Origin: Pseudomonas fluorescens Q2-87
Lineage (GTDB): Bacteria > Pseudomonadota > Gammaproteobacteria > Pseudomonadales > Pseudomonadaceae
Length of the DNA: 64,000 nucleotides
Direction of reading: 5' to 3'
Assembly (NCBI RefSeq): GCF_000281895.1
Contig: NZ_CM001558.1
Coordinates: 5,956,556-6,020,555 of the forward strand
Part shown: positions 23,571 to 35,845 of the stretch, piece by piece
Position numbering within the stretch: position 1 is the stretch's first letter
Layout of the letters: each line of letters opens with the position of its first letter
Translations under genes and position numbers: made by a program
Notes under the pieces: generated by a model
What the model was told of the DNA's origin: nothing
Databases searched by the model: none
What the model saw: the letters and a program-made list of their open reading frames with translations, nothing else

Positions 23571-23646
<76 letters not shown>

Positions 23647-23692
23647 TTTAAGGTTCCAGAGAAGGCTTTCAAAATCTCTGAACCCCTCGAAA

Positions 23693-23716
23693 AACCCGCC
23701 TTCTGGCGGGTTTTTT
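23693..23716 (+). terminator. Rho-independent terminator after tRNA-Thr
   Basis: 8-bp stem (aacccgcc/ggcgggtt) with a 4-nt loop, followed by T4. It lies between the tRNA and the integrase. Confidence 0.85.
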
Positions 23717-23817
23717 CGTTTTGGCGTTCCATCGGTTTCCGTCAGGAACTGGTGGATTCCAACCGTTTTAGGGGTAGTGTTAGGGGTAAGGTAATTCGAT
23801 AAAGGGGGAGTACCCTT

Positions 23818-25140
23818 ATGTCGCGCACCACTGCTCCACTCTCCGATTCGGCTTGCCGCTCAGCCAAGCCCACCGACCGCGCTTACAAGCTTTTCGACGG
23901 CGACGGCCTCTACCTTCTAGTCCAACCCAATGGCCGTAAAGGCTGGCGTCTCAGGTATATCAAGCCTGATGGACGCGAAGGACTGACCCCGTTCGGCAGC
24001 TATCCCGTGGTCGGCCTCGCCGATGCGCGCAACAAGCGCCTGGAGGTCAAGCGGATGCTGGCGAATGGCATCGACCCCATAGAGACCAAACACCAAGCCA
24101 AGACGCAGGCCGCAATCAAAGGCCGAACCTTTGAAAGCGCCGCACTGGACTGGCACAAAGCGATGTCTGCCAAATGGGCTCCGGGCCATGCCAAGACCGT
24201 CCTGAGCCGCCTCAAAACCCATGTCTTCCCGCTGATCGGCGCTCGCTCCATTGTCGATCTGGACACCCATGACCTGATGCAACCTCTGGAAGCGATCCAG
24301 AAGCGCGGCACGATTGACGTCGCTTTAAGGGTACAAAACTACCTGCAGAGCATCATGCGCGAGGCGAAGCGTGCTCGACAGATCGCGGCAAACCCGGCCT
24401 CCGACCTTGAAGGTTTGATCAAAGCTCCGAGGGTGATTCACCGCCCTGCTTTACCTTTATCGCGTCTGCCTGAATTGCAGGAGCGTATCGACACCTACAG
24501 AGGCCGCGCACTTACCCGGCTGACGGTCATGCTCTCGCTGCATGTGTTCGTCCGCTCCAGCGAACTGCGCTTCGCCCGCTGGAGCGAGTTCGACCTCAAG
24601 CGCGGCACCTGGGAGATACCGGACACTCGACCCGCGTTGGACGGAGTACCCTTTTCAACAAGGGGTACGAAGATGGCCGGGGACATCCACCTTGTACCCT
24701 TATCGCCGCAAGCCGTGACCCTGCTTGAACAAATCCACGTCCTCACCGGCAAATTCGACTTGGTGTTTGCAGGCGATGCCAAGCCCTGGAAGCCCATGTC
24801 TGAAAACACGATGAACAGCGCACTCAGAAAGATGGGGTACAACACCAAAGCCGAAATATGCGGGCATGGGTTTCGGTCGATGGCCTGTAGCGCGCTGATT
24901 GAGTCAGGCTTGTGGTCGGAGACAGCCATTGAACGGCAGATGAGTCACAAGGAGCGGAATAACGTCCGAGCTGCTTACATCCACAAGGCCGAGTTCATCG
25001 AGGAGCGCAGGCTGATCATGAACTGGTGGAGCCGGTATCTGGAGGCCAACCGGCAGGAGCATGTCACCCCGCACGAATTTGCAAACCAGACCGGGACGAA
25101 CGTCACGCGGCTCAAGGCGAAAAGCCACTTGAGGGAGTAG
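23818..25140 (+). CDS. P4-type tyrosine integrase of the tRNA-Thr element
   Basis: 440-aa integrase with an N-terminal DUF4102 arm-binding domain (about residues 5-90, LSDSACRSAKPTDRAYKLFD then DGDGLYLLVQPNGRKGW), a core-binding domain (about 110-210) and a catalytic domain. Catalytic residues visible are Arg in SSELRFARW, the HGFRSMA box (HxxR), SHKERN and the tyrosine in AAYIHKAEF. The gene starts 171 bp after the tRNA and faces away from it, the arrangement of P4-family islands. It catalyses integration and excision at the tRNA 3' end. Confidence 0.95.
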   Translation: MSRTTAPLSDSACRSAKPTDRAYKLFDGDGLYLLVQPNGRKGWRLRYIKPDGREGLTPFGSYPVVGLADARNKRLEVKRMLANGIDPIETKHQAKTQAAIKGRTFESAALDWHKAMSAKWAPGHAKTVLSRLKTHVFPLIGARSIVDLDTHDLMQPLEAIQKRGTIDVALRVQNYLQSIMREAKRARQIAANPASDLEGLIKAPRVIHRPALPLSRLPELQERIDTYRGRALTRLTVMLSLHVFVRSSELRFARWSEFDLKRGTWEIPDTRPALDGVPFSTRGTKMAGDIHLVPLSPQAVTLLEQIHVLTGKFDLVFAGDAKPWKPMSENTMNSALRKMGYNTKAEICGHGFRSMACSALIESGLWSETAIERQMSHKERNNVRAAYIHKAEFIEERRLIMNWWSRYLEANRQEHVTPHEFANQTGTNVTRLKAKSHLRE

Positions 25141-25149
25141 GCCGTTAGC

Positions 25150-26853
25150 CTACTCCTCGTCCTGCCCACCAACGTACGCTTTGTACGCCTGCCTTTCATG
25201 AGTCGGCTTGGACGGAAATGCCAACTGAATCTGCCTACTTTTCACCATTCCATTCAGGTACTGCTGACGGAGGGCATCTGGACTGCGCTTTACCAAATTA
25301 GCCAACACGTTGAGCGTCAGATAGTGCTCCTTGCATAGGGTGATAATCACCTGTTGCATACGATCCTTTTGCATGCGCTCTCGATTGCGCGGCTCCTCAG
25401 CCAGTATTTCGAGCTTTTCTCGAAACCCTACATCAAGCCTGTCCAAATCATCGATCAGCGGCGCGTCAATATGATCGCTCAACAAGCAGCCATCATCGTT
25501 TCGCTGCATATCCAGCTCGACCTTATGTTCGGAGCTACCTGCGTTATGTTCGGAGCTAGCCCCGTTATGTTCGGAGCTGCCGGCGTAATGTTCGGAGCTC
25601 TGTAGCGGACCTGCGAACACTTGCTCCGGCGTAGGCAGTTGCTCACCCGGCAGGTGATAAATCATGCCCCGTGAGCGCCCGTCGGGCACAAGGAATCCCT
25701 CGCGTACCAACCGCGCAAGCAGTTGGCTCAAGTCATGAGCATGAGTATCACAAATCTCAAGAAGACGATTATGGCTGACCACCCGCTCAATCGCGGCCGT
25801 GGCCAAAATCAACCTGGCAGTATGTTCCAAGCTCTCGAAACGAACCCCAAATCGCTCTCGTAACTGCTCCACCACCCCTTCAGGAAGCAAGTCCAACATG
25901 CGAAGCTCAAGAAGGGTTTGCTCGGGCTCGGGCTTTTCATAAAGGGCTGGCGGTCGCCAATGCTGGCTGCGCCACCCGCTGTAGATTTTTGGAACCCCAG
26001 AACCACCACGCTCGCCAAGGCCTATAAGAAGAAACATTTGGTGCATTAGCCTGTTCCGGCAATCGCTGGTACCACCTTGCAACACCTGCTCAAGGGGTAA
26101 ACGCAAGCCGCCAGGATTGCGAAAGCCAAACAAGTCAGGACGCTTCACGACTAACACAGAAACCCGTCCGGTATAGTCGGCATGGACCAAGGTATTAACC
26201 AAAGCCTCGCGCAGAGCTTCATGTACCGGTGTGTCATCCTGGCGCTGATCACCTTTGAGAACGAACGGTACCTTTAGGTCCTCAACCAACTTGCGATAAA
26301 CCCGCCGGTAGAAATCAAACAGATTTCCTGACCAGGTTCCATCAGGGACGAGTCTATCCACCCAACGTAGTTCTGTTTTGGCGTGCGGCCGCTCCTGATA
26401 GTCCACAAAGTAATGCGGCACACTCTCTTGGATCGAAAGCCAGCGTCCGAACATCAGTAAACCTGCCAGAGTCAGCCCTTCGACTCCGTTCGCTCGGTCC
26501 TTTCGCCAGCCGCCTATCTGTCGAAGAAACTCAATCCCTTGGTGCTCCAGCGCTGGATGGCCTGGCTTTATGTCGCTAAGCATCTGGCGGTAGATACGCA
26601 GACTGTCCGGATCGATGTCTGCGAAGTCGTAATTTGGCAAAATCCGCTCGTCCCGACAGTCCTCCACTTGCTCTGCGAACATGCGGCGAACATCTTCCTC
26701 AGAGCAACGCCGATCACCCTCATGTAATCGACGATAAGTGTTACCTAGCGGCTGACCATTGAGAAATACTGGCTTCTGCTTACGCGAAGCCGCCGGGATT
26801 TTCACTTCAAGTACCTGCTTGCCCTCCAACTCTCTGACGATCCGCTTGTCCAC
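25150..26853 (-). CDS. ATP-binding AlbA_2/Schlafen-like protein, 5'-truncated
   Basis: 567 aa from a GTG at 26853 (gtg gac aag). It begins with what is normally the second half of an AlbA_2 (Schlafen-like) domain: VLEVKIPAASRKQKPVF, then NTYRRLHEGDRRCSEEDVRRM. The first 70-80 residues of that domain, with the conserved ERK-type motif, are missing, and an in-frame stop lies 19 codons upstream. The middle part has an HATPase-like stretch (EALREALVNTLVHADY) and GLGERGGSGVPKIYSGW, as in the ATP-dependent transcription-regulator relatives. A 21-bp repeat codes SSEHxAG four times near residues 418-443. It is probably a decayed or shortened gene; it could still be expressed from the GTG. Confidence 0.75.
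   Translation of the reverse strand: MDKRIVRELEGKQVLEVKIPAASRKQKPVFLNGQPLGNTYRRLHEGDRRCSEEDVRRMFAEQVEDCRDERILPNYDFADIDPDSLRIYRQMLSDIKPGHPALEHQGIEFLRQIGGWRKDRANGVEGLTLAGLLMFGRWLSIQESVPHYFVDYQERPHAKTELRWVDRLVPDGTWSGNLFDFYRRVYRKLVEDLKVPFVLKGDQRQDDTPVHEALREALVNTLVHADYTGRVSVLVVKRPDLFGFRNPGGLRLPLEQVLQGGTSDCRNRLMHQMFLLIGLGERGGSGVPKIYSGWRSQHWRPPALYEKPEPEQTLLELRMLDLLPEGVVEQLRERFGVRFESLEHTARLILATAAIERVVSHNRLLEICDTHAHDLSQLLARLVREGFLVPDGRSRGMIYHLPGEQLPTPEQVFAGPLQSSEHYAGSSEHNGASSEHNAGSSEHKVELDMQRNDDGCLLSDHIDAPLIDDLDRLDVGFREKLEILAEEPRNRERMQKDRMQQVIITLCKEHYLTLNVLANLVKRSPDALRQQYLNGMVKSRQIQLAFPSKPTHERQAYKAYVGGQDEE
25525..25608. repeat. 21-bp tandem repeat inside the AlbA_2-like gene
   Basis: Four copies of atgttcggagct-N9 start at 25525, 25546, 25567 and 25588. 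On the coding strand they give SSEH followed by three variable residues. The number of copies is likely to vary between strains, without a frameshift. Confidence 0.85.
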
Positions 26854-26856
26854 GCG

Positions 26857-26901
26857 GGTCCATCCAAGCGGGGCTGCAAAGCCGCCCTGCTTGGATGGAC
26901 C
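26857..26901. repeat. Large inverted repeat at the 5' end of the truncated gene
   Basis: Left arm ggtccatccaagcggggctgc and right arm gccgccctgcttggatggacc pair over 21 positions with two mismatches, around a 3-nt centre. It lies 4 bp before the GTG start. Confidence 0.8.
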
Positions 26902-27708
26902 TCACTTAAAAAATCTAAAGCCCACGCAACTGTCTGTGGAAAACCACTGATTTCCACCGGTGGATAATTTCATCCACAGCCGCAGAACTCCCGAAAATTC
27001 GAGCCTTGACCCGAATTATCCACAGGCGTAGAAAAGATCGGGCAAAGCGCTGTCGTTGACAGCAACCCAGGTAGTCAGAACCTTTAAGGCTACGCCACAC
27101 GGTGGTGGTTCTCCCAAAGTGCGATTAGCGTCCGGCGGCTCGCACGGTCACAGCGATGTGATGGATGCCTACTTTTATCAGTGTGCCCACTGCGGCAACT
27201 CATCCCCTTTCATAGCTGCCCTGCAGCAACCTATCCGCTTGTCCATTTCCTTGCGCCAACCTGCGCCCGTCTCTTTCTTCCGGAAAGAGACGGGCGCTCC
27301 TACCGCTGCTGCAGCCCAACTCGTACAAGGCTTTGCGGCATTCCCTCTCGTGACAATCGGCGTGACAAACACCGAAGTCACCAGCATCAGCGATGCCGAT
27401 GATGGTGCCGCAGCCCACGGAATGGACTGCACCTGACTGACAGTCAGGCATGCCCCGGTCACCGCATCACTACCTTCACTCGACTCAGGATCTCGCGGCA
27501 TTGGTCTCGTCAGCCAGTGCAGCCTCCACCCGCCCACTTCTTTGGAAGTGTTCAGGAGGTCAGATCATGAGATGCCCAACCGCCAGTCCTGCGTTAGAGG
27601 ACAACCCTCACAGGTCGCAGGGGCCTTGATCCCTGATAACACTCAACATTCGTGGCGGGATGACGTGAGGAAGGTTTGAAACTTTTTGGCTTCGAGAGGA
27701 GTTCGATC
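26902..27708. other. 807-bp region with a DnaA-box cluster and an unrecognised conserved-looking stretch
   Basis: 26935-27024 holds four DnaA-box-like 9-mers: tgtggaaaa (26935-26943), ggtggataa (26959-26967), tcatccaca (26970-26978) and the perfect TTATCCACA (27016-27024). From about 27056 to 27436 a 126-codon frame is open on the plus strand (starting MTATQVVRTFKATPHGGG) but it has no ribosome site I trust and no family I know. From 27437 to 27708 I see no feature beyond the ribosome site GAGAGGA (27694-27700) of the next gene. Confidence 0.5.
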
Positions 27709-28689
27709 ATGGCACTGGTAGGTAAACGTGGCGGGCGCAATTTTGGCTATGGCCGGCAACTGAGTTATGCCGGGCCGCAGGCGTTAAAAGACATGTTCGG
27801 CGGAGGGCATTACGGGACCGTCAAAGCGCACAGTGATCGTTGGCTGGCATTTGTACGATGGTGTCGGTCTGAGGATGGGCCCGGGTTTAACGATGCGAGG
27901 CAAATTGATTGGCGGACCTTGCTGGACTACGCCGGTCATCTGCGTCACCAAGTTGAACAAGGCGCTATCAGCATCGCCACCGCGCAAAACCGGTTGTCCA
28001 GCGTAAACCGAACCATGGCCGCACTTCGCGGTGATCAGTATGTGAAAGTGCCGAGTCCGAGCAAGACGCTGGGAATGCGGCGGAACAGTGTTCGTCGCTC
28101 GGTGCCGCAAGGCCAAGACCGCGAACACGTGAAGCGGATCGTCGACGTGCTCTGCGAACACCAAATGCCGCGTGCGGCGGCCATCGCCCAGCTGGCGCGA
28201 GCCACCGGCATGCGCTTGCGCGAGGCCATCTTGGCCGACCTTCCGCGCCTGCGAAGAGAAGCCGAACACTACGAAAAGATCAACATCCAGGATGGCACCA
28301 AAGGTGGCCGCGGCGGCGGAACCGCGCCTCGGTGGATCAGGGTGGATGACCATATTCGCGAAGCGCTCAGGTACGCCGAACAGGTCTCTCCCGACGGTAG
28401 CCGCAACCTGCTGGCACCGAACGAGAGCTACCTCGATTTCCAACCGAGTGTCATACGCCCCGCCCGAGACATCCTCCATACGCACAACCTCAAAGGCTTC
28501 CACGAATTGCGCGCGGCTTATGCATGCGAACGCTATGAGCAGATCACCCATCACCTAGCGCCCATCAACGGTGGCAGGGGCAGGCGCCTCGATCCATGCC
28601 TTGATCGAGAGGCACGCTTTCAAATCAGCTATGAGCTGGGACACGGTCGAATCGACGTGGTATCGGCGTACATCGGTGGTCGGGTATGA
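27709..28689 (+). CDS. Tyrosine recombinase, Integrase_1 type
   Basis: 326-aa protein with an N-terminal phage-integrase SAM-like domain (VKAHSDRWLAFVRWC near residues 35-50) and a catalytic domain with Arg in ATGMRLREAIL, the HELRAAY box (HxxR) and the final LGHGRIDVVSAYIG with the nucleophile tyrosine. All catalytic residues appear present. I start at the ATG at 27709 with GAGAGGA before it. Such 'integrase domain-containing' proteins occur in Pseudomonas ICE backbones, where their target is unknown. It is distinct from the P4-type integrase at 23818. Confidence 0.88.
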   Translation: MALVGKRGGRNFGYGRQLSYAGPQALKDMFGGGHYGTVKAHSDRWLAFVRWCRSEDGPGFNDARQIDWRTLLDYAGHLRHQVEQGAISIATAQNRLSSVNRTMAALRGDQYVKVPSPSKTLGMRRNSVRRSVPQGQDREHVKRIVDVLCEHQMPRAAAIAQLARATGMRLREAILADLPRLRREAEHYEKINIQDGTKGGRGGGTAPRWIRVDDHIREALRYAEQVSPDGSRNLLAPNESYLDFQPSVIRPARDILHTHNLKGFHELRAAYACERYEQITHHLAPINGGRGRRLDPCLDREARFQISYELGHGRIDVVSAYIGGRV

Positions 28690-28961
28690 ATAAACCATTC
28701 GATATGGAGATCTTCTTGGCTGGGGCACTGACTGGAGCACATGCCACACGAGAACGTCACATCCGCCAGGCCAAGACTATTCAAGCAGCCATTTCTGAAC
28801 GCTGGAACCGAGATAATCCATGGACATGGCAAAGAAAGCATCTCGTTTGGTTTTTGAACCACCACATGAACTCAAACTCGAAATCGACGCGCTACTACTA
28901 CCTGCTGACCACAAGCCTGATCACTCTGCGCCTAGGAAAATCCTGGAATTTTCAACGTTAG
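28686..28961 (+). CDS. Small helical partner of the Integrase_1-type recombinase
   Basis: 91-aa protein whose start overlaps the recombinase stop by 4 bp (ATGA), so it is translationally coupled. It starts MNKPFDMEIFLAGALTGAHAT and contains DNPWTWQRKHLVWFLNHH and STRYYYLL, a pattern I associate with the small proteins that follow Integrase_1 genes in ICEs. It resembles a core-binding SAM-like domain on its own. Its function is unknown; it may assist DNA binding. Confidence 0.7.
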   Translation: MNKPFDMEIFLAGALTGAHATRERHIRQAKTIQAAISERWNRDNPWTWQRKHLVWFLNHHMNSNSKSTRYYYLLTTSLITLRLGKSWNFQR

Positions 28962-29157
28962 CCGAATGCCAGCAACTGCGCGCTCTGTATCCCTAACTGG
29001 CAGATTGAGCCAGCCAACAATTTGATTGGGATTAGGGCGGACCTCTTGAGCCCCTGAACCTAACCTCTGTTGTTTGATAACCTCTATGTTTTACTGATGG
29101 ACTGAGGGTTGTAGCTCGAGGCTACAGGCTTCACCTGAGACGTAGAGGCTGAAGGCG
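28962..29157. promoter_or_regulatory. Leader of the primase/helicase gene
   Basis: 196 bp without a gene. It contains a hairpin tgtagc-tcgag-gctaca (29110-29126) about 30 bp before the GTG start, and GAAGG (29151-29155) as ribosome site. Confidence 0.5.
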
Positions 29158-31530
29158 GTGATAGACACTAGTCTGGTGGCGAAGCTAAGGGCTGAGAATG
29201 CAAGATTGGTTGCCTTGCTGGATGCTCATGGCATCGAATGGCGTCCGCCTGCTGAGCCAGTCAAGATAGCGATTGTCCAAGCAGAACAATCACAGCAACT
29301 CGATACTGATGGAAAGCTTGCCCTATTCCGAAGCTTGTTTCGTGGTAGGACGGACGTTTATCCCATCCGCTGGGAAAGCAAGGCAGGCAAATCAGGATAC
29401 GCACCCGCTTGCGCAAACGAATGGAAGCCTGGTGTTTGTGAGAAGCCCCGAATTAAGTGTGGCGACTGCGGTAACCGCCAGCTGCTTCCGCTGACCGATG
29501 AGGTGGTCTATCGCCATCTGGCGGGCGAAGTGGTCGTTGGTATCTACCCCCTACTCTCTGATGACACTTGTTATTTTTTGGCAGTCGACTTCGATGAGGC
29601 CGAATGGCGTGATGATTCCAAAGCTTTTGTACAGTCATGCCATGAGTTGAACGTCCCGGTGGCGCTGGAAATATCGCGCTCAGGCCAAGGGGCTCATGGC
29701 TGGATTTTCTTTGAGCGTAATGTTCCTGCCTGCGATGCGCGCCGCCTCGGTGCCGCAATCATCAGTCATGCCTGTGAGCGCACCCGCCAGTTGGCGCTCA
29801 GCTCCTATGATCGACTGTTTCCAAACCAGGACTATATGCCCAAAGGCGGCTTTGGAAATCTCATCGCGCTCCCTTTACAAAAGCGGGCCAGGGCCCAAAA
29901 CAATAGCGTTTTTGTAGACGACTCGCTTGAGCCTCATCCTGATCAATGGGCCTTCCTGGCATCGATTCAGCGCATGAGTCCAGAAGATATCCAGCCCGTT
30001 ATTATCCAGGCGATGGGTAATCGGGACCCTCTAGGGGTCGCCTATGTCGATGACGACGGTGATGCAGAACCTTGGAAAGATCGTGAATCGAGATCACGTA
30101 AATTGACATGCCCGTTGCCTGCTGCTGTCAACATCACGCTGGCTAACTTAATTTACTTTGAAAAGTCGGAATTGCCACAGCCATTGGCAAACCAGCTTGT
30201 CCGGCTCGCTGCCTTTCAAAATCCTGAGTTCTACAAAGCTCAGGCCATGCGCATGTCAGTGTGGAACAAGCCAAGGATTATCGGCTGTGCCCAGAACTTC
30301 CCCAAACATATTGCGTTACCACGTGGCTGTTTGGATGCTGCGCTGGAGCTTTTAGAGGAAAACGGGGTTACCCCTATTCTTAAAGACGAACGCTTCGCGG
30401 GCGACCCCATCGACGTGAGCTTTCTCGGGACCCTGCGTTCTGACCAAGAGGCTGCTGTCAGCGCAATGCTAAGTCATGACACCGGTATCCTCTGCGCACC
30501 GACAGCTTTCGGTAAAACAGTGAGTGCTGCTGCGTTGATTGCCGCACGTGGCATTAACACGTTGGTGCTTGTGCATCGGACAGAACTATTAAGGCAGTGG
30601 CAAGAGCGCTTGCAGGCGTTCTTGAGAGTCGGGAATGGTGTCGTTGGTACTCTTGGGGGCGGAAAAGCGAAACTTACAGGCATCATCGACATTGCCGTAA
30701 TGCAGTCGTTATCGCGAAAAGGCGAGATCAGCGATCAGGTAAAAAATTACGGCCAGATCATCGTTGATGAGTGTCATCACCTATCAGCAGTGTCATTCGA
30801 GGCACTACTGAGAAGCGCTACAGCGCGGTACGTACTGGGACTCACTGCAACCCCAGTGCGCCGAGATGGGCAGCAGCCCATTATTTTCATGCAGTGCGGA
30901 CCGATCCGACATTCTGCTGCTCGACCTGCGAGTGCGCCCCATGACCTCTCCGTCGTGCCTCGATTGCTGCCCAAACCAATAGTGGTCCCCGACGGCTTTG
31001 GGATTCAGGACGTTTTTCGGCGTCTAGCCGACGACTCTGAGCGGACAGCCAAAATCGTCTCGGAGATTGAGCTGGCGTACAACGAGGGTAGAAAAATTCT
31101 AGTGTTAACGGAGCGGACGGAACATGTGGATGCCCTTGAATTAGAATTGAAGCAGCGCGTGCATAACCTTTTCACGCTTCATGGGCGAGTGCCTAAGAAA
31201 CAGCGAACTTCCCGTATGCATGATCTTGAGTCCCTTCCCCCTGATGCTCCACGAGTGCTGCTGGCAACAGGAAAACTAGTAGGTGAAGGCTTCGATCATC
31301 CGCCGTTGGACACGCTGGTGCTGGCAATGCCCATCTCATGGAAGGGTATCCTTCAGCAATATGCGGGACGATTGCATCGATCGCATGCCGAAAAGGCCGA
31401 CGTGAGAGTGATCGACTTCGTTGACGAGGGTAATGTCGCGCTGATGAGGATGTGGGATAAGCGCCAGGCGGGTTACAAAGCGATGGGCTACCGCATGGCT
31501 GATTCCATGGCCACCATGGACCTACTCTAA
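29158..31530 (+). CDS. TOTE-type archaeo-eukaryotic primase / SF2 helicase fusion
   Basis: 790-aa protein from a GTG start. Residues 1-35 form a helical motif (AKLRAENARLVALLDAHGIEW). Residues about 60-290 form an AEP-fold primase domain of the TOTE conflict-system class, with a small Cys module (CGDCG), FLAVDFDEAEW carrying the metal-binding aspartates, SGQGAHGWIFF with the conserved histidine, and GNLIALPLQ. From about 420 follows a SF2 helicase: CAPTAFGKTVSAAALI (Walker A), IIVDECHHLSA (DEAH-like box), LGLTATPVRRDG, and QQYAGRLHRSHAEK (motif VI). The helicase is of the COG1061/UvrB-like type. No separate nuclease is seen. Such proteins are presumed anti-phage or mobile-element conflict factors; the exact action is unknown. 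Confidence 0.88.
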   Translation: MIDTSLVAKLRAENARLVALLDAHGIEWRPPAEPVKIAIVQAEQSQQLDTDGKLALFRSLFRGRTDVYPIRWESKAGKSGYAPACANEWKPGVCEKPRIKCGDCGNRQLLPLTDEVVYRHLAGEVVVGIYPLLSDDTCYFLAVDFDEAEWRDDSKAFVQSCHELNVPVALEISRSGQGAHGWIFFERNVPACDARRLGAAIISHACERTRQLALSSYDRLFPNQDYMPKGGFGNLIALPLQKRARAQNNSVFVDDSLEPHPDQWAFLASIQRMSPEDIQPVIIQAMGNRDPLGVAYVDDDGDAEPWKDRESRSRKLTCPLPAAVNITLANLIYFEKSELPQPLANQLVRLAAFQNPEFYKAQAMRMSVWNKPRIIGCAQNFPKHIALPRGCLDAALELLEENGVTPILKDERFAGDPIDVSFLGTLRSDQEAAVSAMLSHDTGILCAPTAFGKTVSAAALIAARGINTLVLVHRTELLRQWQERLQAFLRVGNGVVGTLGGGKAKLTGIIDIAVMQSLSRKGEISDQVKNYGQIIVDECHHLSAVSFEALLRSATARYVLGLTATPVRRDGQQPIIFMQCGPIRHSAARPASAPHDLSVVPRLLPKPIVVPDGFGIQDVFRRLADDSERTAKIVSEIELAYNEGRKILVLTERTEHVDALELELKQRVHNLFTLHGRVPKKQRTSRMHDLESLPPDAPRVLLATGKLVGEGFDHPPLDTLVLAMPISWKGILQQYAGRLHRSHAEKADVRVIDFVDEGNVALMRMWDKRQAGYKAMGYRMADSMATMDLL

Positions 31531-31732
31531 CTCTAACGTGATTGACAGTTGACACAGCAACGGCCCAACTCTCATAGACGAATGACCGGCCGCTGTGGGG
31601 GCAACTCCGGCCCTTCGCCGTTAGTCACGTCAAGCAAGATCCTCAGGCGCGCGAGGTCCTTGAGGTAGTTTTAGAGGTAGAATCGCACAGGTCTTTAAGT
31701 ATTAATCAGCTAACTCAATAACTTATTAGATC

Positions 31733-31750
31733 GTTCGACTCCTGGTGCCG
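31733..31750 (+). repeat. attR (copy of the tRNA-Thr 3' end)
   Basis: 18 bp identical to attL. The following bases caccat differ from the tRNA ggcaccat by the loss of one G. Confidence 0.85.
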
Positions 31751-31795: not shown

Positions 31796-31962
31796 TTTCT
31801 GATGCTTGAAATTTCCAGAAAACAGATACGACCCACACCGCCTTGTCAGCATCGACAGACCAAACCTTGCTTGCGCGCCTGCTCGTTACAATTTCACGTT
31901 AGTGCGACGTTGACGGGTAACCGTCTGGGCAACACATCTTCCTGATGCCATCGCTTAAGGCG

Positions 31963-31994
31963 ATGGTGTCCACCTAAATTTAAGTGGACACCAT
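31963..31994. repeat. 32-bp near-perfect palindrome left of the IS66 element
   Basis: atggtgtccac / gtggacaccat arms of 11 bp with an inner palindrome taaattta; only the flanking C/A pair is unmatched. It ends 12 bp before the left IS66 end. Confidence 0.8.
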
Positions 31995-32020
31995 TTTTTA
32001 GCCTTTTTAAGCGGACGCCC

Positions 32021-32347
32021 ATGCCACAAGAACGTCGTTCCTATTCCAAATCCTTCAAGGCCCAAGTCATTGCCGAATGTGCGCAGCCTGACACCTCGAT
32101 TGCCAATGTCGCTTTGACCCACAACCTCAACGCCAATCTAGTCCATAAATGGATTCGGGTGCATGCGCAGAAAACTCTGGCGCTGCAAACCGCCTTCATC
32201 CCGGTCAAGGCAGCGCCAGCGGTGCATCAAGTCCTTTCTGCCACGATTAGGATCGAAGTGCCTCATTCAAAAGGCGTAGTTGTGGTGAGTTGGCCGACAG
32301 AAAATGCAGCGTCGTGTTCCGCTTTCCTACGAGACCTGCTTCGATGA
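32021..32347 (+). CDS. tnpA: IS66 accessory protein TnpA
   Basis: 108-aa small IS66 protein with a helix-turn-helix near residues 8-45 (YSKSFKAQVIAECAQPD then HNLNANLVHKWIR). It is thought to be needed for IS66 transposition, probably by binding DNA. The stop overlaps tnpB by 4 bp. Confidence 0.85.
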   Translation: MPQERRSYSKSFKAQVIAECAQPDTSIANVALTHNLNANLVHKWIRVHAQKTLALQTAFIPVKAAPAVHQVLSATIRIEVPHSKGVVVVSWPTENAASCSAFLRDLLR

Positions 32348-32679
32348 TCCGCGTCGACTCCATCTGGCTCGCCACCGAGCCCATGGACATGCGCGCCGGC
32401 ACTGAAACCGCGCTGGCGCGAGTTGTCGCGGTGTTCGGTGCGGCGAAGCCGCACTGTGCCTATCTGTTCGCCAACCGCCGCGCCAATCGCATGAAAGTGC
32501 TGGTGCATGACGGCGTGGGGATTTGGCTTGCCGCCCGGCGTTTGAATCAAGGACGCTTCTTCTGGCCGGGTGTGCGACACGGCTCAGAAGTTGAGTTGGA
32601 TGCCGAGCAACTTCAGGCCCTGGTGCTCGGTTTACCTTGGCAGCGCGTCGGTGCAGGCGGAATCATCTCGATGCTTTAA
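32344..32679 (+). CDS. tnpB: IS66 accessory protein TnpB
   Basis: 111-aa IS66 Orf2-like protein (WLATEPMDMRAGTETAL, then CAYLFANRRANRMKVLVHDG and GIWLAARRLNQGRFFWP). The family is required for IS66 transposition by an unknown mechanism. It is unrelated to the IS200/IS605 TnpB nuclease of the same name. Confidence 0.92.
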   Translation: MIRVDSIWLATEPMDMRAGTETALARVVAVFGAAKPHCAYLFANRRANRMKVLVHDGVGIWLAARRLNQGRFFWPGVRHGSEVELDAEQLQALVLGLPWQRVGAGGIISML

Positions 32680-32760
32680 GACCTGCCATGGCGCGCTTGC
32701 CAGCGCAATTGGCCCATCAGTCTGTCGCAGCCATGTGCCCTCTCTGGCAAAATCGGCGGT

Positions 32761-34287
32761 ATGACTTCGCATCCGAATCTCGATCAATTAAACCCTGAAG
32801 AACTGCGAGCCTTGGCGGCGCAGTTGATCCAGCGCGTCGAGACGATGGACAAGCAAATTACTCATCACAAGTCGGTCAACGAGAAGCTGGCCCACGAGAT
32901 CGCGCTGCTCAAACGCTTCAAGTTTGCCAAGCGCAGCGAGCAGCTAAGTCCGGATCAAGCCAGCTTGCTCGACGACTTGATCGACACCGATATCGCCGCC
33001 ATCGAAGCTGAGCTTGAAGCACTGCAACCCGTGTCTGTCGAAGCCAAAATGCGCCAGCAGCCCAAGCGCGCTGCGCTGCCACCGCAGTTCCCTCGCACTC
33101 TGATCCATCACGAACCGGAAAACAGCCACTGCCAATGCGGCTGCGCCCTCAAGCGTATCGGCGAAGATGCCAGCGAAAAGCTCGACTACACACCGGGCGT
33201 TTTCACGGTCGAGCGCCATATCCGTGGAAAATGGGCCTGCGAGCAGTGCGAAACACTGATCCAGGCGCCGGTACCGGCGCACGTCATCGACAAAGGCATC
33301 CCGACGGCGGGCCTGCTGGCCCACGTCATGGTGGCCAAGTTTGCCGACCATCTGCCGCTGTATCGGCAGGAGAAAATCTTCGGCCGCGCCGGACTGCCTA
33401 TTGCTCGCTCGACCTTGGCGCAATGGGTGGGCAACTGCGGCGTGCAATTACAGCCGCTGGTTGATGCGCTGCGCGAAGCCGTGCTGACGCACGGCGTCGT
33501 CCACGCCGACGAGACGCCGGTACAAATGCTGATGCCTGGCGCTAAGAAAACTCACCGCGCTTATGTCTGGGCCTATGCCACCAGCCAGTTCTGCGATCTG
33601 GCAGCAGTCGTTTATGACTTCAGTCCGAGCCGTGCTGGCGAACATGCCCGAGCCTTCCTTGGCCACTGGAACGGCAAGCTAGTCTGCGACGACTTCGCTG
33701 GCTACAAGGCAGGCTTTGAACTGGGCGTCACGGAGATCGGCTGCATGGCCCATGCACGCCGCAAGTTCTTCGACTTGCACGCGACCAACAAAAGCCAGAT
33801 CGCCGAAAAAGCGCTGCACTACATCGGGGCCTTGTACGAAGTAGAACGAGAAGTCCGCGAGCTGGAACCGGGTGTCCGACAGCGAATACGGCAGGAAAAA
33901 GCAGCGCCTATTATCGACGCACTTCATACCTGGATGATCGCCCAGAGGCAGCTTGTGCCTGAGGGATCGGCCATCGCCAAGGCATTGGATTACAGCCTCA
34001 AACGCTGGATAGCGCTAACGCGTTATCTCGATGACGGTGCTGTACCCATCGATAATAACTGGTGCGAGAATCAAATTCGGCCGTGGGCTCTTGGTCGCTC
34101 GAACTGGCTGTTCGCGGGCTCGTTACGCAGTGGTAAACGTGCCGCAGCGATCATGAGTTTGATCCAGTCGGCGCGGCTCAACGGGCATGATCCGTATGCG
34201 TATTTGAAGGATGTTCTTACACGCCTGCCGACGCAGCGGGCGAGTGAGATTACCGAGCTGTTGCCGCACAGGTGGGTGCCCGTTTAA
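32761..34287 (+). CDS. tnpC: IS66 transposase TnpC
   Basis: 508-aa DDE transposase. An N-terminal leucine-rich helix (about 12-60) precedes a zinc-binding segment (HCQCGCALKRIGED near 120, then CEQCETLI), then the DDE domain with VVHADETPVQML, LVCDDFAGYKAGF and DNNWCENQIRPWALGRSNW (the D, D and E). The length is normal and the frame is intact, so the element could be active. Confidence 0.95.
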   Translation: MTSHPNLDQLNPEELRALAAQLIQRVETMDKQITHHKSVNEKLAHEIALLKRFKFAKRSEQLSPDQASLLDDLIDTDIAAIEAELEALQPVSVEAKMRQQPKRAALPPQFPRTLIHHEPENSHCQCGCALKRIGEDASEKLDYTPGVFTVERHIRGKWACEQCETLIQAPVPAHVIDKGIPTAGLLAHVMVAKFADHLPLYRQEKIFGRAGLPIARSTLAQWVGNCGVQLQPLVDALREAVLTHGVVHADETPVQMLMPGAKKTHRAYVWAYATSQFCDLAAVVYDFSPSRAGEHARAFLGHWNGKLVCDDFAGYKAGFELGVTEIGCMAHARRKFFDLHATNKSQIAEKALHYIGALYEVEREVRELEPGVRQRIRQEKAAPIIDALHTWMIAQRQLVPEGSAIAKALDYSLKRWIALTRYLDDGAVPIDNNWCENQIRPWALGRSNWLFAGSLRSGKRAAAIMSLIQSARLNGHDPYAYLKDVLTRLPTQRASEITELLPHRWVPV

Positions 34288-34318
34288 TCACGCAAGGTGT
34301 GTTGGGCGGACGCTTACG

Positions 34319-34346
34319 TTGACGGCCCCTTACACCCACCTATAAT
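34319..34346 (+). promoter_or_regulatory. Consensus promoter of the Abi-associated RNA
   Basis: TTGACG (34319-34324) and perfect TATAAT (34341-34346) with a 16-bp spacer. The -35 box begins 2 bp after the IS66 right end. Confidence 0.8.
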
Positions 34347-34351
34347 GCACC

Positions 34352-34414
34352 CCAACACACCCGCCAAGCCTAGGTTGACCCAGTCAGCAAGCTCAAATCG
34401 TGCGGGTTTTTTTT
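34352..34414 (+). ncRNA. Candidate structured RNA upstream of the Abi gene (abiF-RNA-like)
   Basis: About 60 nt lie between the expected start (near 34352-34354) and a run of eight T (34407-34414). acccgc (34359-34364) pairs with gcgggt (34402-34407), closing a 37-nt internal region that contains cctagg and can fold further; the T-run follows directly, as in a terminator with a large loop. The Abi start codon is 16 bp downstream. From memory, AbiF-type genes are often preceded by a structured RNA that acts as antitoxin; I did not run a covariance model. Confidence 0.6.
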
Positions 34415-34430
34415 GCCTGGAGAAAACTAC

Positions 34431-35420
34431 ATGAGGCCCTTCGACAAACCGGCTCTCAGCGTAGAACAGCAATTGGAACTGCTAAAGCAACGAGGCTTGC
34501 ACATCGCCAACGATGATCGGGCCATGCGTTTTCTTGAAGTGGCCACGCTGTTTCGCCTGAGTCCTTACATGCGCCCTTTTCAAGAGCCAGACCCTGAACA
34601 TACTTTCAAGCCAGGCAGCACACTGAAGGCAATCGTCGACATCTACCGCTTCGATGGTTCGTTGCGGCGCATTACCATGGACGCCATCGAACGTGTCGAA
34701 GTCGCCATACGAGCGACTATCAGCAATCATATGTGCCCAAAGTATGGGGCTGACTGGATAGCTGACTCGTCAGTCTTCTCCTCGTCATACTCACACCCCG
34801 ATCTGTTGCGTCCGTTGCGGGAGCAAATGAATAAGGAGCGCAGCAAACTCAGACGTGATATTGACCGCATCAAAAAGGGTCGACAAGCCGATGGGCTTCA
34901 GCACCAGCGGATCGAAAACCGCATGCGCGACAATTATTTTCGATATTACGGTGCAACCTATGCCCACCCTGAGTTGCCGCCCGCTTGGGCGATCATGGAA
35001 GAGCTGAGCCTTGGGACGGTATCTGCTCTCTTCAATGCCATAGGCAAAAGCGCCGACAAGAAAGCTATTGCCACCCGCTTCAGCCTGCCCTTCGAAGTAT
35101 TAGCCTCCTGGCTACACACGTTGACCTTCATTCGCAACTGTTGTGCTCACCACTCCAGACTATGGAACCGAGAGCTTTCGATTCGACCGTCCTTGCCTAA
35201 AGAATGGACCATCCCAACGGCTCCTGCTAACCGACCTCAGCCCAAACAGCGGTTATACATCGTATTGACGATGCTGGCCTACCTAACCGACTTGATCAGC
35301 CCAGACAGCCAATGGAAGCTTCGCCTGGCCGAAATCATGGATCGGCAGGAAGTGGATTATTTGAGACTCATGGGGTTTCCAGATAAATGGAAGGATCAGC
35401 AGCAATGGCGCCGAGCGTAA
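34431..35420 (+). CDS. Abi_2/AbiF-like abortive-infection HEPN protein
   Basis: 329-aa member of the Abi_2 (AbiD/AbiF) family. The N-terminal part has LLKQRGLHIANDDRAMRFLE and SPYMRPFQ, the middle YRFDGSLRRITMDAIERVEVAI, and the C-terminal HEPN ribonuclease motif is FIRNCCAHHSRLWNRELSI (R-x4-H). HEPN Abi proteins cleave RNA and stop growth on phage infection. I prefer the ATG at 34431 (GGAG at 34419-34422) to an upstream TTG at 34413. It stands behind the candidate RNA at 34352-34414 and just outside the IS66 element. Confidence 0.9.
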   Translation: MRPFDKPALSVEQQLELLKQRGLHIANDDRAMRFLEVATLFRLSPYMRPFQEPDPEHTFKPGSTLKAIVDIYRFDGSLRRITMDAIERVEVAIRATISNHMCPKYGADWIADSSVFSSSYSHPDLLRPLREQMNKERSKLRRDIDRIKKGRQADGLQHQRIENRMRDNYFRYYGATYAHPELPPAWAIMEELSLGTVSALFNAIGKSADKKAIATRFSLPFEVLASWLHTLTFIRNCCAHHSRLWNRELSIRPSLPKEWTIPTAPANRPQPKQRLYIVLTMLAYLTDLISPDSQWKLRLAEIMDRQEVDYLRLMGFPDKWKDQQQWRRA

Positions 35421-35596
35421 AAAGCTAGAAACAGAACAGGATTAATGTTTTGAGTTCCGCTGCGAGGACAACGCCAGGGAGTTGGTGTCCGGTCTGTAGG
35501 GACAAGTCCAACTCCCGGTTTTCCTACCCCGTGCATGGCCGCCACCCAATCCCGTAGGAAGGACGGTTGCGGCTCTCACAGTCAAGGAGCCAGGCA
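35421..35596 (+). promoter_or_regulatory. Two-hairpin leader before the DUF3077 gene
   Basis: Hairpin 1 has 9-bp arms gggagttgg (35477-35485) and ccaactccc (35508-35516) with inner pairing tgtcc (35486-35490) and ggaca (35500-35504). Hairpin 2 has arms ttcctac (35521-35527) and gtaggaa (35554-35560). The coding sequence begins at 35597 after AAGGAG (35584-35589). Could be a structured 5' UTR. Confidence 0.5.
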
Positions 35597-35845
35597 ATGC
35601 CGAATCCGCAAGACCTCAAAACCGTAGGCCTAACCTTCTTCTCCTACCACGCCGACCGCCCTCTCTTTCGCGTCAACAGCGGCATACCCGTAGGCGAAGC
35701 CCTAACCCACGCTTCCAACCTCCTCCACGTTGCCAAGGTCCTGGCCGAGGGCGCGGCGATGATTCGAGGTACGGATCGTTATGCCTGGGCTTCACTCAGA
35801 CCAACCGAGCCCCGCCATCGATGTTCAACGTGGCGCCGTTCATAA
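35597..35845 (+). CDS. DUF3077 domain protein, probably 3'-truncated
   Basis: 82 aa. The first 62 or so match Pseudomonas DUF3077 proteins (MPNPQDLKTVGLTFF, then PVGEALTHASNLLHVAKVL and DRYAWAS). After RYAWA the sequence is not family-like and enters the 3' end of the convergent SDR gene, so the true C-terminus was probably lost at about 35790. The function of the family is unknown. Confidence 0.65.
   Translation: MPNPQDLKTVGLTFFSYHADRPLFRVNSGIPVGEALTHASNLLHVAKVLAEGAAMIRGTDRYAWASLRPTEPRHRCSTWRRS

Follow-up and report, generated by a model that had tools for sequence, protein, structure and literature searches.

A chromosomal AbiF-type gene in Pseudomonas with a predicted abiF RNA antitoxin on its own promoter

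A promoter, about 60 nt with pairing ends and a run of T, all placed before the start codon of an Abi protein gene, raise the question of whether the short RNA is itself a product and what it would do to the protein encoded behind it. We examined such a locus in a 64-kb window, by which we mean the whole stretch of DNA analysed (5956556-6020555 of a 6.37-Mb single-contig Pseudomonas genome), for which the first-pass annotation had proposed an AbiF-type protein with an RNA as its antitoxin. The unit is laid out as follows, in window positions.

34319-34324, forward strand: -35 hexamer TTGACG, from the promoter scan, within the right copy of an IS66 target duplication
34341-34346, forward strand: -10 hexamer TATAAT, from the promoter scan
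34353-34414, forward strand: predicted antitoxin RNA of ~60 nt, its start placed from the -10 box and its end from the T run
34407-34414, forward strand: U8 tract right after the closing helix and, with that helix, the probable terminator, from the sequence and a T-rich tract kept in relatives
34419-34422, forward strand: GGAG, probable ribosome binding site from the sequence, 8 nt 5′ of the ATG
34431-35420, forward strand: abiF-type gene for a predicted Abi_2/HEPN RNase of 329 aa, from Pfam, PADLOC, PDB matches and an AlphaFold2 model
35133-35150, forward strand: codons of RNCCAH (R235-H240), the RxxxxH HEPN active-site motif, from an alignment of 14 sequences

The promoter reads TTGACG-N16-TATAAT (34319-34346) as annotated at first pass, and matches 11/12 consensus letters in the promoter scan. 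At the scan threshold of 9/12, 0.7 such sites are expected in the 1.4 kb concerned, so that a promoter match alone is unremarkable; sites with at least 11/12 letters number 2 in the 64-kb window, both strands included. The paired ends of the ~60-nt segment were likewise found, ACCCGC (34359-34364) being complementary to GCGGGT (34402-34407). The eight T form the sole run of that length on either strand of the window and end 16 bp before ATG 34431, as had been described; the run was said to follow the paired ends, which is correct for its length of eight but not for its first letter, since T 34407 is already the final letter of the stem. An alternative in-frame TTG start at 34413 would yield 335 aa, and ATG 34431 is preferred because of its better ribosome binding site.

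The assignment of the gene product as an Abi_2 HEPN protein was upheld by the Pfam model Abi_2 (PF07751), with 155.9 bits against a cut-off of 25.6 (E 1.8e-45), and by the RNCCAH motif at residues 235-240, in which R, N, C, A and H are invariant in 14/14 aligned sequences. PADLOC calls the protein AbiD, not AbiF (E 9.7e-63), and no NCBIfam model matches it. Its AlphaFold2 model (pLDDT 88.2, pTM 0.83) was matched by Foldseek to PDB 8vz6 chain A, entitled 'PbAbiF dimer bound to ncRNA', with E 4.2e-17 and TM 0.75/0.82, and no chain besides those of 8vz6 passes E 0.001. By sequence, 8vz6 is reached with E 3.3e-47 from the protein alone and E 3.1e-68 from a profile. On these matches and the model, the gene product is predicted to be an AbiF-type HEPN RNase with the PbAbiF fold. 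It is the one Abi_2 gene in the genome, and among its relatives in named genomes 19/25 are from Pseudomonas, with identities up to 94%. A phage or plasmid origin was considered and rejected. The phage collection gave no DNA match to the unit, and the plasmids gave one short match, whose 82 query bases begin shortly before the -10 box and extend slightly beyond the T run; on its Pseudoalteromonas plasmid it precedes an Abi gene that is flanked by type I restriction genes. At the protein level, the 20 phage records listed (of 49) do not exceed ~30% identity and the 30 plasmid records listed (of 404) do not exceed 43%, and all phage (49) and plasmid (404) records are below 60% identity.

The RNA was compared with the Rfam family of abiF RNAs (RF03085), folded, and aligned with its relatives, which gave the following elements.

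34359-34407, forward strand: abiF RNA motif, RF03085-like, from the Rfam model, folding, covariation and model R1
34359-34364 with 34402-34407, plus C34365-G34400, forward strand: helix 1, from predicted structure and covariation
34367-34369 with 34391-34393, forward strand: helix 2, from predicted structure and covariation
34374-34379 with 34383-34388, forward strand: helix 3, from predicted structure and covariation

The abiF covariance model, by which the first-pass annotation had proposed to identify the RNA, gives 34.2 bits for 34360-34407 (E 6.3e-5 for the 181 bases scanned, which hold a single motif), and the match keeps every displayed consensus letter; it is the single RF03085 match in the whole 6.37-Mb genome (E 5.2e-4) but lies under the Rfam gathering score of 37 bits, so that a default Rfam scan of the window is without this RNA. 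The window RNA has the same two conserved helices and loop letters as the family, and differs from it by an apical part that is 10 nt longer, with an extra 6-bp apical helix, and by one inserted U. A second model, R1, was trained on 41 RNAs from other genera and from Pseudomonas clades other than the window's, so as to avoid circularity; these training RNAs had themselves come via RF03085 or proximity to Abi relatives. R1 scores the window RNA at 47.1 bits (E 4.7e-8 in the window), the next-best window match having 9.2 bits, and finds only this one match genome-wide (E 4.7e-6).

The covarying stems that had been predicted among homologues were found in two partly overlapping alignments, A1 with 46 distinct long-type RNAs and A2 with 53 diverse RNAs. 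In A1, 96.8% of cells are paired, both-side changes occur in 10/16 pairs, and 93 cells are changed on both sides against 34.0 in shuffles; in A2, 98.7% of cells are paired, 8/10 pairs show both-side changes, and such changes affect 56 cells against 11.9. In neither alignment is any of five measures equalled in 500 shuffles, and sliding the structures along the alignment drops the pairing to 27%-54%. The opening pair of helix 2 varies by group as A-U, U-A or C-G (A2), and these natural compensatory variants of the relatives suit tests of RNA-toxin specificity. The unpaired C12, T13 and A37 of the motif are conserved in all rows of A1 and A2, and the AAA after helix 2 in 46/46 rows of A1, but not in A2. 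Folding energy was weakly better than that of shuffles (z -1.74 for the window RNA and -1.65 for the core), two relatives giving weaker values (-0.61 and -0.62) and one a stronger value (-3.14). A chance structure is thus ruled out by the covariation and the independent model R1, energy alone not being decisive. The covariation supports a conserved two-helix abiF structure, and the window RNA is predicted to have the abiF fold.

We next assayed how far the RNA and the gene travel together in the genus. RF03085 matches were present in 28/398 sampled Pseudomonas genomes, the window's included, and protein matches at E 1e-10 or better in 86/398. The 28 RNA loci comprise 20 with a full-length Abi frame, four with a fragmented or stop-split abi (L010, L014, L019 and L021) and four with no abi (L004, L005, L011 and L027). 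Only 2/28 of these genomes reach the Rfam cut-off, and 20/28 RNAs precede a full-length Abi frame despite 26/28 genomes lying below it, a sign that the cut-off is too strict for this genus. Reciprocally, the RNA lies directly upstream of abi in 30/30 of the best protein loci of the genus (best 30 of 86). These are the window, 15 further loci whose proteins are 62-94% identical to the window's, a broken gene being among them, and 14 loci (L116-L129) belonging to a second Pseudomonas clade. The latter proteins share 43-48% identity with the window's and stand behind an RNA variant, GCCATGCC...GCACAAATTG, with U-A in place of A-U in helix 2; 12/14 of their genomes have no RF03085 listing in the genus scan. 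The 49-nt core is letter-identical in 14/28 genus RNA loci, the window included, and these loci include proteins down to ~84% identity with that of the window. Over 22 distinct intact loci of the clade, 43/49 core positions are invariant, and 4/6 of the variable ones lie in the apical hairpin.

Promoters were compared among 32 distinct window-clade loci left after identical surroundings (~150 nt) had been removed, 25 intact and 7 broken. At least 11/12 promoter letters were found in 23/25 intact and 0/7 broken loci, counts that ignore relatedness, and at least eight T in 25/25 and 3/7, respectively. The de-duplication removed L019, whose gene is broken and whose 11/12 promoter is identical to that of the intact L015; with L019, the broken loci stand at 1/8. 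In eight loci (L005, L010, L011, L014, L019, L021, L027 and L048) the RNA core is kept while abi is broken or missing, and the promoters are mostly worn. Retention of the RNA after toxin loss was considered as proof of an antitoxin and rejected: the broken loci were found mainly via the RNA and are therefore biased to RNA retention, and mutations strike a stretch of 60 nt less often than a gene of 1 kb.

The unit can be set against systems already described. The closest precedent is RCd22/AbiFCd of the C. difficile prophage phi027, for which the RNA antitoxin has been demonstrated experimentally: without RCd22 the abiF transcript rises 17-fold, RCd22 neutralises AbiFCd in cis and in trans, and an R/H mutant loses toxicity (PMC12373285). 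As described there, that system shares with the window unit a promoter, an RF03085 motif RNA, a U-tract end and an Abi_2 HEPN gene with RNxCAH, and in both the RNA and gene are probably co-transcribed. In contrast, RCd22 carries a pair of abiF motifs followed by a distinct terminator hairpin (PMC12373285), whereas the window RNA has one motif whose closing helix runs into U8; AbiFCd/RCd22 resides in a prophage lysis module and the window unit at a chromosomal site near tRNA-Thr; and the function of the former is experimental, that of the latter predicted. PbAbiF has been solved as a dimer with its ncRNA AbiFr (8vz6; PMC12737573, PMC12373285). The window protein is homologous to it along almost its entire length and shares its fold and the RNxCxH motif, at ~30% identity. 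The toxin of the type III system ToxIN has the ToxN fold, that of the window being a predicted HEPN protein. ToxIN is otherwise described as carrying an RNA antitoxin, a terminator and a toxin gene on one transcript (PMC12373285), an order that the proposed unit would share if its closing helix and U8 act as a terminator. Antitoxins of the ToxIN kind consist of tandem repeats, which the window RNA lacks. The same protein family as the window's occurs as AbiD/AbiF in the restriction-modification operons described earlier (PMC3710099), and the operons of this sort found here carry the same RNA, whereas the window unit lies outside any restriction operon. Judged by these comparisons, the unit is a putative member of the already known AbiF toxin/RNA antitoxin kind.

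The pairing with an antitoxin RNA thus gained support from the abiF fold, the covariation, the PbAbiF fold and the C. difficile precedent (PMC12373285), and we consider it very likely that the locus is an AbiF-type RNA-antitoxin/toxin unit working as follows. Transcription from the one promoter would yield a short RNA with the abiF fold. It would mostly stop at U8 after the closing helix and so supply free RNA in excess, and some polymerases would read through to give the HEPN RNase mRNA. The RNA would bind the AbiF dimer and block its RNxCAH active site; should the RNA supply drop, for example on phage take-over of transcription, free AbiF would cut RNA and growth would stop. The promoter sequence, covarying RNA fold, U tract, gene, active-site motif, predicted protein fold and conservation as a unit are all seen here. 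RNA-protein binding, neutralisation, toxicity and read-through are what the published relatives lead one to expect, and by the same analogy the RNA most likely keeps a self-toxic RNase harmless. The trigger and the anti-phage role of the unit are guesses. The locus would offer, in a genus that is easy to work with, a small chromosomal representative of a type of RNA-antitoxin system which two papers present as ancestral to Cas13 (PMC12737573, PMC12165695).

The single promoter and the stem and U tract just 5′ of the gene would equally suit an RNA that is a cis-acting leader only, that is, an attenuator limiting read-through to abi mRNA and binding no protein, and RCd22 is reported to have by itself a strong effect in cis on transcription in C. 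difficile (PMC12373285). We regard this as improbable, because the conserved unpaired letters lie off the terminator part (C12, T13 and A37, and the AAA in A1, not A2) and a plain attenuator needs none of them, and because the related RCd22 acts in trans and co-purifies with AbiF (PMC12373285) and PbAbiF was solved together with its RNA (PMC12373285, PMC12737573).

An insertion adjoins the promoter of the proposed RNA-antitoxin unit.

31909-31916, forward strand: left copy of the target duplication GTTGACGG, from the junction alignment
31917-34317, forward strand: IS66-family element of 2401 bp, from Pfam and the junction alignment, with 4 identical genome copies including this one
34318-34325, forward strand: right copy of the target duplication GTTGACGG, from the junction alignment

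The element ends in GTAACCGTC and GTAAGCGTC and is flanked by a target duplication of 8 bp. When it was excised in silico, the flanks aligned gap-free at the junction with L029, L030, L017 and L009, all four of which lack the IS and have identical promoter hexamers (L017 equals L029 around the site). An IS66 end beside the -35 box had been noted at first pass, and it does adjoin the promoter; the gap is, however, 1 bp and not 2, and the hexamer sits inside the target duplication. Since the duplicated octamer holds the whole -35 hexamer, the promoter was restored exactly and just the sequence upstream was displaced, which accounts for the unit having escaped disruption, as had been supposed, and makes the locus a clear instance of an insertion sequence that rebuilds a promoter by duplicating its target site. 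The four identical copies in the genome suggest that the insertion is probably recent. The unit could still be a silent remnant, with upstream promoter elements removed by IS66 and the gene unexpressed, given that all sequence 5′ of the -35 box was displaced and that 8/28 genus RNA loci have a broken or no abi, so that decay is common. This is nevertheless an unlikely outcome, and more so than a bare leader, as no damage is seen in the frame, active site, RNA, ribosome binding site or promoter, the target duplication rebuilt the -35 box exactly, and most broken loci have worn promoters (L019 excepted), which the window does not. Finally, a Cas13-like RNA guide steering the HEPN RNase to targets, suggested by the placing of AbiD/F proteins at the origin of the Cas13 HEPN domains (PMC12165695, PMC12737573), is very improbable and was rejected for the absence of a variable spacer-like part, 43/49 positions being invariant in the 22 distinct intact loci.

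The position of the T-rich tract was followed in the window RNA and its relatives, which together gave 62 unique motifs (61 of them from the relatives), mostly gammaproteobacterial by sampling. At least 5 T occur in the 8 nt after the closing helix in 58/62 motifs and at least 6 T in 49/62, as compared with at least 5 T in 0-5 of 62 for eleven other 8-nt windows around the motif. A promoter of at least 9/12 letters lies within 55 nt upstream of 32/62 motifs versus 3.0% of random windows, the other 30 having none that good. A standard short-loop terminator scan lists nothing at the abi unit because of the long loop. Judging from its position, the antitoxin's closing helix in Pseudomonadota is probably also the terminator hairpin, and as the T-rich tract abuts this helix in 58/62 motifs while the hairpin of RCd22 is separate, a fused antitoxin-terminator is proposed. 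If true, this would be a very economical switch.

The distribution of the RNA beyond the window's clade was then surveyed in stretches around 57 loci with 62 RNAs, comprising all order-, class- and phylum-level places and 7/28 of the genus; L193, L194, L196 and L197 were fetched and are outside this count. The first-pass annotation had held that the same RNA found away from Abi genes would speak against the pairing, and among the relatives this is partly the case: 17/62 RNAs lack a neighbouring Abi gene, as far as the profile detects. Nine of these stand with type I restriction genes, a setting already known for Abi2/AbiF genes (PMC3710099), and the other 8 are mixed. Since the Abi profile was built from relatives found in this analysis, a very divergent Abi could escape it in RNA-only loci; L139 holds a weak Abi remnant. 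In 18/57 stretches the RNA shares its strand with type I hsd genes; these comprise 13 with Abi (some fragmented) and 5 without an Abi detected by profile (L130, L133, L134, L136 and L184). In L133, L158 and L186 hsdR is the sole hsd gene noticed, and Pfam confirms HsdM, HsdR or HsdS for the six genes tested, in L130, L131, L132, L133 and L134. Several operons hold more than one copy: abi, hsdS and hsdR are each preceded by an RNA in L131, two copies precede hsdS and a third abi in L132, and in L167 two copies precede abi. Each of the three loci includes at least one weakly matched RNA (29.2 bits).

A wider reading of these observations is offered tentatively and we think it more doubtful than not. 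In Pseudomonadota, antitoxin fold and terminator would be one object, whose folding shuts the toxin gene and whose misfolding would both free AbiF and raise its synthesis. In type I restriction operons, a part of the reading that concerns the relatives only and not the window locus, the RNA would have spread as a cassette, also before hsdS or hsdR and sometimes without AbiF, so that AbiF there could stay silent only during operon transcription, an RNA-based safeguard. In the literature consulted, seen in part, no published account was found of the Pseudomonas unit or of RNA-only restriction-operon copies, which does not prove their absence from print; for specialists, the fused antitoxin-terminator and these copies are the points of interest. 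Two further neighbourhoods were observed: in L136 a Fic-domain gene adjoins the abiF RNA, and in L135 (176-1883) an abiF RNA of 34.8 bits lies 5′ of two genes that by eye resemble an AbiEi/AbiEii pair.

The chromosomal home of the window unit was traced through the tRNA gene that accompanies its relatives.

23571-23646, forward strand: tRNA-Thr (TGT), from the tRNA scan, shortly 5′ of the unit in many relatives
23818-25140: phage-type integrase in an ~8-kb element
27035-27168: radC RNA in the ~8-kb element
27676-28689: second integrase-like gene in the ~8-kb element
29158-31530: TOTE-type primase-helicase in the ~8-kb element

tRNA-Thr (TGT) was found in 29/42 loci scanned, duplicates kept, a set that includes the window itself (L001) and L003, which is of another type. 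A 3′ piece of the tRNA lies upstream of the unit in 32/41 clade loci, 26 times at a distance of 131-357 nt and 6 times at 665-1268 nt; in L005, L010, L014, L021 and L027 the RNA is near the same tRNA-Thr and abi is decayed or missing. In the window, an 18-bp repeat of the 3′ part of tRNA-Thr occurs at 23623 and 31733, and between the two repeats an integrative element of ~8 kb is seated at tRNA-Thr (23571-31750). This element pushed tRNA-Thr away from the abi unit. On the other side, a small DUF3077 gene (PF11275) at 35567-35845 lies just 3′ of the unit.
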